Shown here in pieces: positions 34,062-42,512 of a stretch of 64,000 bases of DNA. Origin of the DNA: Caulobacter sp. (lineage in GTDB: Bacteria; Pseudomonadota; Alphaproteobacteria; Caulobacterales; Caulobacteraceae); assembly GCA_019636175.1 (NCBI GenBank), contig JAHBYC010000003.1, positions 108,291-172,290 on the forward strand. The letters run 5' to 3'. Numbering within the stretch: position 1 is the first letter of the stretch; every line of letters starts with the position of its first letter. The notes below the pieces were generated by a model. It saw nothing but the letters and a program-made list of their open reading frames with translations, was not told the origin of the DNA and searched no databases. The translations under genes were made by a program, and so were the position numbers.

Positions 34062-34070
34062 TTATCCACA
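34062..34070 (+). promoter_or_regulatory. Perfect DnaA-box sequence TTATCCACA
   Basis: An exact match to the strong DnaA box lies in the gap between tam and the micro-ORF, about 40 bases upstream of the candidate -35 of the micro-ORF. A single box could be chance or could serve gene control; there is no AT-rich unwinding region or box cluster to suggest an origin. Confidence 0.4.
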
Positions 34071-34107
34071 GGTCGACCCTGAAATGACCCGGGGCGTCAA
34101 AAGACCT

Positions 34108-34137
34108 TTGCAGAACAGCGCCCGGCGCCCATATCCT
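34108..34137 (+). promoter_or_regulatory. Candidate promoter of the 34.2-kb micro-ORF
   Basis: TTGCAG (34108-34113) and TATCCT (34132-34137) are separated by 18 bases, a weak match to the -35/-10 consensus. Start of transcription would be near 34144, giving an RNA of about 178 nt to the terminator. This is the best candidate I see, not a firm call. Confidence 0.3.
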
Positions 34138-34159
34138 GAAGGTCCTGTTCTCAACAGCT

Positions 34160-34176
34160 GAAAGGAGGTGATCCAG
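34160..34176 (+). promoter_or_regulatory. 17-base super Shine-Dalgarno complementary to the whole 16S 3' tail
   Basis: GAAAGGAGGTGATCCAG is perfectly complementary to the single-stranded 3' tail of alphaproteobacterial 16S rRNA (CTGGATCACCTCCTTTC), well beyond a normal 4-7 base Shine-Dalgarno. The core GGAGG ends 7 bases before the GTG at 34176. Sequence on either side is unrelated to 16S rRNA, so it is not an rRNA fragment. It is the only such match I found in the window. Confidence 0.75.
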
Positions 34177-34244
34177 TGTCTCACCAAAAACACACGGCAA
34201 CCGCTCAAGGATCGAAGGTTGCGGGGGTCTCTCCCCTCCTTTGA
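34176..34244 (+). CDS. 22-codon micro-ORF behind the super Shine-Dalgarno
   Basis: A GTG-started frame of 22 codons ending in TGA. The peptide starts MSHQKHTATAQ and ends VSPLL; it is hydrophilic, with two His and two Lys, and matches no protein I know. The start is strongly supported by the 17-base ribosome-binding match at perfect spacing. Its last codons contain CCTCCTTT (34235-34242), which can pair with AAAGGAGG (34161-34168). An internal stem GCAACC/GGTTGC (34197-34202 / 34217-34222) nests inside. No plus-strand gene follows, so it is either a true micropeptide or the translated part of a regulatory RNA. Confidence 0.5.
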   Translation: MSHQKHTATAQGSKVAGVSPLL

Positions 34245-34289
34245 TCTGTGAAGTCGTCTGACGACGCGGTTTGTCCGTCGTTTGGTGTG

Positions 34290-34322
34290 GGGCCGGCTCT
34301 CGTAAGGGAGCCGGCCCTTTCC
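34290..34322 (+). terminator. Intrinsic terminator of the micro-ORF transcript
   Basis: The perfect 10-bp stem GGGCCGGCTC (34290-34299) / GAGCCGGCCC (34308-34317) is followed by TTTCC. A smaller stem (ACGACG 34261-34266 / CGTCGT 34276-34281) precedes it. The T-tract is short, but the stem is very stable; it lies between the micro-ORF and the convergent small membrane gene. Confidence 0.7.
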
Positions 34323-34630: not shown

Positions 34631-35785
34631 TCACCCGCCAACCAACTCGCGGCCGATCAGGAAGCGACGGATCTCGTTGGTGCCGGCGCCGATGTCGTAG
34701 AGCTTGGCGTCGCGCAGGAAGCGTTCGACCGGCCATTCCTTCGTATAACCGGCGCCGCCCAGGGCCTGGATGGCCTCCAGCGAGGTCTTCACGGCGTTCT
34801 CACTGGCCAGCAGGATGGCGCCGGCGGCGTCGAAACGGGTGGTCTTGCCGGCATCGCAGGCGCGGGCGACGGCGTAGACATAGGCGCGGGCGCTGTTGAG
34901 GGCGACATACATGTCGGCGACCTTGCCCTGCATCAGCTGGAAATTGCCGATCGGTGCGCCGAACTGCTTACGGTCACGGACGTAGGGCAGAACCACGTCG
35001 AGACAGGCCTGCATGATGCCGAGCGGCCCAGCCGACAGCACGGCGCGCTCGTAGTCGAGCCCGCTCATCAGCACGCCGACGCCGCCGTTCAGCGGCCCCA
35101 TGATGTTTTCCTCGGGAACCTCGCAGTCCTCGAATACCAGTTCGGCGGTGTCCGACCCGCGCATGCCCATCTTGTCCAGCTTCCGGCTGACGCTGAAGCC
35201 CTTCATGCCCTTCTCGATGAGGAAGGCGGTGATGCCGCGGCTGCCCTCGCCGGTCTTGGCGTAGACCACCAGGGTGTCGGCATGGGGGGCGTTGGTGATC
35301 CAGAACTTCGTTCCGTTCAGGATGTAGCGGTCGCCCTGCTGTTCGGCGCGCAGCGTCATCGACACCACATCGGAGCCGGAGCCGGCCTCGCTCATGGCCA
35401 GGGAGCCGACATGTTCGCCGCTGATCAGTTTGGGCAGATAGCGTCGCTTCTGTTCCGGCGTCGCCCAGCGGCGGATCTGGTTGATGCAGAGATTGGAGTG
35501 GGCGCCGTAGCTGAGGCCGATGCTGGCCGAGGCGCGGGACACCTCCTCCATGGCGACGACGTGTTCGAGGTAGCCGAGGCCAAGGCCGCCCCACTCTTCC
35601 TCGACGGTGATGCCGTGCAGACCAAGCTCGCCCATCTCGGGCCAGAGCTCGCGGGGGAAGTGGTTGTCGGCGTCGATCTGCGCCGCCATCGGCGCGATGC
35701 GGTCGGCGGCGAAGCGGGCGGTGGTGTCGCGGATCGCGTCCGCGGTTTCGCCGAGGGCGAAGTCCATCTGGGGTGAGTTGCTCAT
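34631..35785 (-). CDS. liuA: Isovaleryl-CoA dehydrogenase
   Basis: A 384-residue acyl-CoA dehydrogenase. It opens with [30 protein letters not shown], which is close to mitochondrial isovaleryl-CoA dehydrogenase. It has the FAD-binding [13 protein letters not shown] and [16 protein letters not shown], plus the catalytic Glu in the GLDYERAVL block. It ends with the [17 protein letters not shown] tail. It oxidises isovaleryl-CoA to 3-methylcrotonyl-CoA, passing electrons to ETF. Start ATG 35785. It is on the same strand as liuBCD but 3.3 kb upstream, separated by four other genes. Confidence 0.92.
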
Positions 35786-35856
35786 GGGCGCCAGATAGCA
35801 CGAGGCCGCGCGGATCGGCGAGACCCCAGGCCCCCTGCCCTCGCCGACCGCGCGTG

Positions 35857-35903
35857 CAAAAGAACGAGAGCGCGACAGCGGTCCCCCGACCGCCATCGCG
35901 CTC
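35857..35903 (-). terminator. Terminator downstream of the GH24-like gene (minus strand)
   Basis: A strong two-part hairpin has outer arms 35868-35875 / 35896-35903 (GAGCGCGA / TCGCGCTC) and inner arms 35878-35883 / 35888-35893. Read on the minus strand it is followed by TCGTTCTTTT. It lies 40 bases after the stop of the GH24-like gene and upstream of liuA. Confidence 0.65.

Positions 35904-40535: not shown

Positions 40536-42512
<1,977 letters not shown>

Follow-up and report, generated by a model that had tools for sequence, protein, structure and literature searches.

A Caulobacter RNA of family RF01867 (CC2171) combines a complement of the whole 16S rRNA tail with a kept micro-reading frame: a possible ribosome-gated micro-mRNA of Alphaproteobacteria

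Why would a bacterial transcript carry a complement of the entire single-stranded 3' tail of 16S ribosomal RNA (rRNA) directly in front of a reading frame of only 22 codons? The question is raised by a plus-strand locus in a stretch of 64,000 nucleotides (nt) of Caulobacter sp. DNA (assembly GCA_019636175.1, contig JAHBYC010000003.1, positions 108,291 to 172,290), hereafter the window, in whose numbering all coordinates are given. A Shine-Dalgarno (SD) segment of 17 nt, GAAAGGAGGTGATCCAG, lies at 34160-34176 and is complementary to the 16S 3' tail CTGGATCACCTCCTTTC. Its GGAGG (34164-34168) is separated by 7 nt from a GTG at 34176-34178, the G of the start codon being the last base of the 17-mer, and the resulting micro open reading frame (micro-ORF, 34176-34244) consists of 22 codons and a TGA (VSHQKHTATAQGSKVAGVSPLL). 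An intrinsic terminator hairpin of 13 base pairs with a GTAA loop follows at 34289-34318. An earlier sequence-only reading had described this arrangement as a micro-gene that stands alone, ends in a terminator and matches the 16S tail in its entirety, and the 17-mer, the spacing, the frame and the terminator were all confirmed in the sequence. That reading missed that the locus belongs to a catalogued Rfam family, that the element reaches across the class and that it contains a covarying helix. We propose, with moderate confidence, that RNAs of the RF01867 type are ribosome-gated micro-mRNAs.

When the whole window was searched against Rfam, two matches were obtained, a transfer RNA (tRNA) and RF01867 CC2171, labelled as a Caulobacter small RNA (sRNA). 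The covariance-model match to RF01867 (34152-34317, plus strand) extended over positions 1-159 of the 159 in the model and scored 77.9 bits against a curated cut-off of 75; a helix beside the terminator, termed P1 below, was also found. In Caulobacteraceae, matches with E values up to 0.001 were present in 247 of 299 genomes and in 21 of 22 genera (178 of the 299 genomes above the cut-off). The class-wide search gave matches in 61 of 289 genomes, 10 of them above the cut-off, and the pattern GAAAGGAGGTGATCCARTGTCTCA, with up to two mismatches, occurred in 51 of 385 class genomes. A looser pattern of SD plus start codon was found in 53 of 299 genomes of the phylum, which by hand sorting comprised 52 of 86 Alphaproteobacteria versus 1 of 213 other Pseudomonadota. 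All 11 of the 52 alphaproteobacterial loci that were retrieved had frames of 14-31 codons; the lone match outside the class had 10 codons and, by eye, no further part of the element. Thus, the recurrence in Caulobacteraceae together with the uneven split of the pattern argues against a chance match. A scan of named genomes yielded at least 120 loci, with 80 named among the matches listed; the genera among the matches listed include Methylobacterium, Bosea, Microvirga, Azospirillum, Falsiroseomonas, Rhodopseudomonas, Devosia, Brevundimonas and Phenylobacterium. The distant loci are proposed as kin on the strength of three features, namely SD block, short frame and terminator. No other Rfam family overlapped the element in distant members (12 and 20 loci searched), the tRNA and ffh matches of these loci lying elsewhere.

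The exact 17-mer occurs once in the genome of the window (assembly of 3.17 Mb, 86.9% complete), where one additional site with two mismatches was found; the window locus is also the sole occurrence of the 12-mer AAAGGAGGTGAT. An exact complement of the 17-mer was not found in this assembly, so that the 16S end seems to be missing there, and the identity of the tail is deduced from relatives: testing of 15 related genomes revealed the partner GGCTGGATCACCTCCTTTCT in 6, with four of them belonging to the same genus. Across members, the contiguous 16S match had a median of 17 nt and reached at least 13 nt in 223 of 284, part of these members having been selected by that motif. The calculated energy of the SD:16S duplex was -32.2 kcal/mol.

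The frame behind this SD is kept. Among 248 unique SD hits, collected irrespective of ORF length and superseding an earlier count of 244 unique out of 250 with 12-30 codons, the start-codon frame comprised 18-26 codons in 231, a length that the two alternative frames showed in 24 and 49; of the remaining start-codon frames, 4 were shorter and 13 longer. Indels of 3 nt accounted for 23 of 64 unique indel contexts within the ORF versus 18 of 280 downstream of it. The three codon positions changed 150, 188 and 170 times in 80 disjoint pairs, and when ORFs of 18-30 codons were compared with a null of simulated substitutions, replacements were as radical as in the null (BLOSUM score per replacement -0.86 versus -0.87). 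The peptide of the nearest relative, G022, is identical to that of the window; the peptides of distant members look unrelated. Of the features expected from a small-protein gene, the kept frame was observed and purifying selection on the amino acids was not, and peptide selection as the main force was rejected on the basis of codon position, synonymous share and BLOSUM score versus the simulations. Since the frame is kept while replacements match the null, selection appears to act on translation more than on the peptide.

Some members have frames of other lengths. In Azospirillum-type loci (L065, L068, L168, L179, L186, L219, L220, L245) the same SD opens a frame of 56-59 codons (MSHGA..) that looks like an exported small protein, and another frame of such kind, with 55-56 codons, was seen in L285 and L286. 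Only 14 codons are present in L222 (Rhodopseudomonas rhenobacensis), L257, L290, L323 and L324, which share a KRCHL..xAR end and an internal CACCTC, perhaps another copy of the tail; a tRNA gene lies near two of these. The kept length also has an exception within the genus Caulobacter, L029, whose frame has only 13 codons.

In helix P1, the bases of codons 3-5 pair with a segment adjoining the terminator. In the window, pairing, fold and covariation place its arms at 34182-34188 (CACCAAA) and 34281-34287 (TTTGGTG); variants elsewhere are CATTGTC/GACAATG, CATAGTT/GACTATG, CAATGTC/GACATTG and CATTTGT/ACAAATG. A terminator was found for 237 members, which were used for the terminator-based P1 and fold comparisons; P1 and the frame count cover loci up to L272, with the later retrieved L273-L329 left out. 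Using a search window anchored on the terminator, a good P1 was found in 205 of the 237. For 5' arms differing from the majority, the partner window of the same genome fitted in 52 of 77 cases, compared with 24% of 15,056 draws from other genomes. In a class-wide alignment of 42 sequences, chosen by eye from 60 diverse ones for clear 3' ends and thereby favouring P1, 92.8% of P1 cells pair and both sides have changed in 5 of 7 pairs, which was equalled by 4 of 500 shuffles; neither the covariation score nor the number of paired cells was reached by any of the 500. The window RNA itself folds with a z-score of -5.5, with both P1 and the terminator formed and the SD unpaired apart from a 3-bp hairpin that the centroid structure lacks. 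A second stem beside P1, P2, is suggestive only: at least six complementary bases were present in 91 of 237 members, versus 63 with swapped partners and 38 with shuffled sequence. The sequence-only reading had proposed to weigh codon-level against RNA-level conservation, and the outcome was positive in part for both, as the frame is kept and the stem covaries, while the amino acids are not clearly selected.

In addition to P1, many members contain within the frame the string ACC TGG A.C, whose third bases around TGG are almost fixed, and many have there a segment that nearly copies the 16S tail, ACCTGGATC..GCCTCC, translated as T-W-I-V-A-S. Pairing of this segment with the SD (helix S) could mask the latter. 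RNAalifold paired GGAGGTGATCCAGTGTC with GACCTGGATC...GCCTCC or similar in three of five clades, and predicted P1 in the other two. For ORFs of 18-28 codons (n = 238) the SD:ORF duplex reached -20.0, compared with -15.9 for shuffled ORFs and -16.1 for the sequence after the ORF, and in 46% of these members at most 3 of 60 shuffles were as good. Where the SD varies, its own ORF fitted better in the mean than permuted ones (0 of 100 permutations; kinship ignored), and sliding helix S out of register lowered pairing from 79% to 30-51%. Plain folds extended into sequence past the terminator, and SD pairing derived from them was not used. A masked SD state is likely in a good part of the members. 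In the window, CCTCCTTT at 34235-34242 is the complement of AAAGGAGG at 34161-34168 and a possible masking segment; masking there is doubtful. The distant loci L297, L302, L308, L310, L319, L326 and L328 have in common, near the frame end, the sequence GG(A/G)GCA(A/G)CCT, which is perhaps an alternative route to SD masking.

The element seems to be stand-alone, given a positioned -10-like hexamer, the terminator and the lack of a shared neighbour. In 211 of 283 members the best -10-like hexamer began 36-46 nt ahead of the start codon, compared with 51 of 283 after shuffling of the upstream sequence; strong hexamers, scoring at least 9, were few, at 31 versus 4. In the window, the promoter-hexamer scan identified a -35-like TTTGCA (34107-34112) and, after a spacer of 17 nt, a -10-like CATATC (34130-34135), and the transcript would extend from about 34140 to 34320. 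The absence of a plus-strand gene for about 6 kb downstream, claimed earlier, held up: the next convincing one, judged by eye from the ORF list, begins at 40536. Two minus-strand ORFs just downstream were checked in Pfam, one encoding an acyl-CoA dehydrogenase (34631-35896) and one of 79 residues without a family. No neighbouring gene common across the class was seen, the largest sharing comprising 57 of 244 loci, many of which have short flanks. Among 22 representatives, 21 usable after removal of the duplicate L194, 11 shared no neighbour with at least 8 loci. A leader-peptide attenuator was rejected because no class-wide shared downstream gene was seen in these flanks and the next plus-strand gene in the window is so distant.

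The following reading builds on anatomy, P1, frame and distribution as they emerge from sequence and comparison. A short leader presents an SD whose pairing can take in as much as the whole of the single-stranded 16S tail, with the start codon at the end of the SD; from base 7 of the frame onwards the RNA folds back, through P1, onto the segment adjoining the terminator, and the frame, kept while its amino acids drift, closes after about 22 codons. A 30S subunit could dock via the long SD despite the folded coding part, P1 would have to melt for initiation, and every passing ribosome would remodel the RNA. In many members, the internal tail copy may close the SD when no 30S subunit is bound, in competition with the 16S tail, giving a two-state RNA set by the tail of the ribosome versus the RNA's own copy of it. 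More tentatively, we can envisage an RNA of ancient standing in the Alphaproteobacteria that serves as a sensor of free 30S subunits, the competition between tail and copy deciding the fold and translation of an unimportant peptide being the read-out. If the proposal is true, a structured RNA that keeps a full partner of the 16S tail and a frame without a kept peptide would be a direct handle on how the supply of initiating ribosomes is read or buffered in the cell. An orphan Rfam entry also gains in reach and receives an anatomy that can be tested, and the data suggest that some RNAs of Alphaproteobacteria classed as 'non-coding' may be translated because the act of translation itself matters.

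Several observations weigh against the gated micro-mRNA. Most distant loci score below the RF01867 cut-off (in two sets of chosen loci, 5 of 12 and none of 20 reached it), and in the most distant ones (L297-L312) the P1 arms were not evident by eye. Within the ORF, 30 of the 64 indel contexts are of 1 nt. The synonymous share (0.265 versus 0.207 in the null; 1 of 300 simulations) and the third-position share (0.335 versus 0.299; 5 of 300) are slightly in excess, which makes some coding selection possible. In the 42 sequences, shuffles equalled helix S in 131 of 500 cases for paired cells and in 96 of 500 for the score, with an SD that is almost invariant, and covariation of this helix is thus not demonstrated. 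Among 85 SD variants, the own SD outperformed the consensus in 41 and fell short of it in 22, relatedness being uncorrected. Over all 237 members the open fold was favoured (median +2.6 kcal/mol, the closed fold lower in 77), and in 60 diverse members the two were near equal (median +0.9, closed lower in 28); in the window, 15 of 60 shuffles paired as well as helix S and the open fold was better by 8.7 kcal/mol. Finally, the available part of the 2014 ribosome profiling study of C. crescentus by Schrader and colleagues describes regions of non-coding RNA as untranslated, while reporting translation of two previously predicted non-coding RNAs (PMC4117421); that work may thus already have decided, for or against, whether CC2171 is translated.

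Of the rival explanations, a base-pairing sRNA with incidental translation survives best and is still rather unlikely. Its SD-like 5' end would sponge anti-SD sRNAs, or other parts would pair with mRNAs, in line with the filing of CC2171 as an sRNA in Rfam. As far as the accessible sections of the two papers go, precedents exist in the Caulobacter RNAs SisA-D, which have an anti-SD 10-mer and are sponged by CrfA (PMC12559287), and in rhizobial sRNAs with CCUCCUCCC loops (PMC3927594). Such a role, however, explains neither the kept frame nor why the match in so many members takes in the 16S tail in full.

The strength of the SD:16S duplex (-32.2 kcal/mol) would also suit a decoy that docks and holds free 30S subunits and does not need its ORF, and P1, beginning at frame base 7, would obstruct accommodation. 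Conservation of the frame implies that ribosomes elongate, however, and we consider a decoy unlikely.

That the locus serves to produce a functional micropeptide, some 22 residues long and expressed from a very strong ribosome-binding site, appears improbable. Frame and length are kept, many members share the consensus VSHC..PRS..TW..AS.EV, and the slight synonymous and third-position excess would fit; replacements as radical as in the null speak against it. Moreover, the recurring SHC and TW.xAS overlap P1 and the SD-complementary segment, with the near-fixed third bases around TGG, and the peptides of other lineages look unrelated.

An mRNA for a type I toxin or a similar hydrophobic small protein with a masked SD is very improbable: a short ORF, a structured mRNA and a terminator are indeed present, but the peptide sequence is not kept, the median GRAVY (grand average of hydropathy) is -0.01 and a 15-residue stretch above 1.6 was found in only 8 of 277 peptides, which is not the picture of a conserved hydrophobic toxin. 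A chance match or a 16S fragment from misassembly, the latter raised by the sequence-only reading itself, is next to impossible in view of conservation, frame, covariation and presence in named isolate genomes, with nothing found in its favour.

Small ORFs within regulatory RNAs, with an SD masked by structure, are familiar from dual-function sRNAs and leader-peptide attenuators such as SgrS/SgrT and ermC. CC2171-type RNAs differ from these in that neither a class-wide shared downstream gene nor a conserved peptide was seen. Long pairing between mRNA and 16S tail is alike in the extended SD initiation of Staphylococcus aureus, which concerns mRNAs of S. aureus proteins (PMC13009471), whereas the RNA of the window is structured, stands alone and encodes a peptide that is apparently not under selection. 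The available text of the Rfam 15 paper reports one covarying pair gained for RF01867 (PMC11701678). A transcript of Mesorhizobium huakuii, MH_s33, is listed as RF01867 with a length of 215 nt (PMC5596092) and hence belongs to the same family as the window RNA; the available part of that study treats it as non-coding and gives neither an ORF nor a function. The Rfam label reads simply Caulobacter sRNA; the present analysis adds to it the micro-ORF, the match to the 16S tail, the segment complementary to the SD and the class-wide reach, and a literature search in a limited library retrieved no paper on any of these four for RF01867. The accessible parts of PMC4842269, PMC5082802, PMC7685610, PMC4287350, PMC11005374 and PMC5988900 contained nothing attributable to the element.

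With respect to mobile DNA, a phage collection contained no match to the window RNA, and a phage origin was rejected on this ground. One relative has matches in three Methylobacterium plasmid records, in one case across most of its length, with no annotated gene beneath these matches in a gene table that is incomplete. One genome (G310) carries two differing copies (L279, L280), both with an ATG start.

A DnaA box upstream of the locus had also been noted from the sequence. A perfect box, TTATCCACA, is indeed present at 34062-34070; a search of the 120 nt upstream in 284 members found such a box in just two, namely the window and L303, and hence it is not a general part of the element. It is also visible in L325, and the nearest relative (G022, locus L318) has a DnaA box at about the same distance as in the window.
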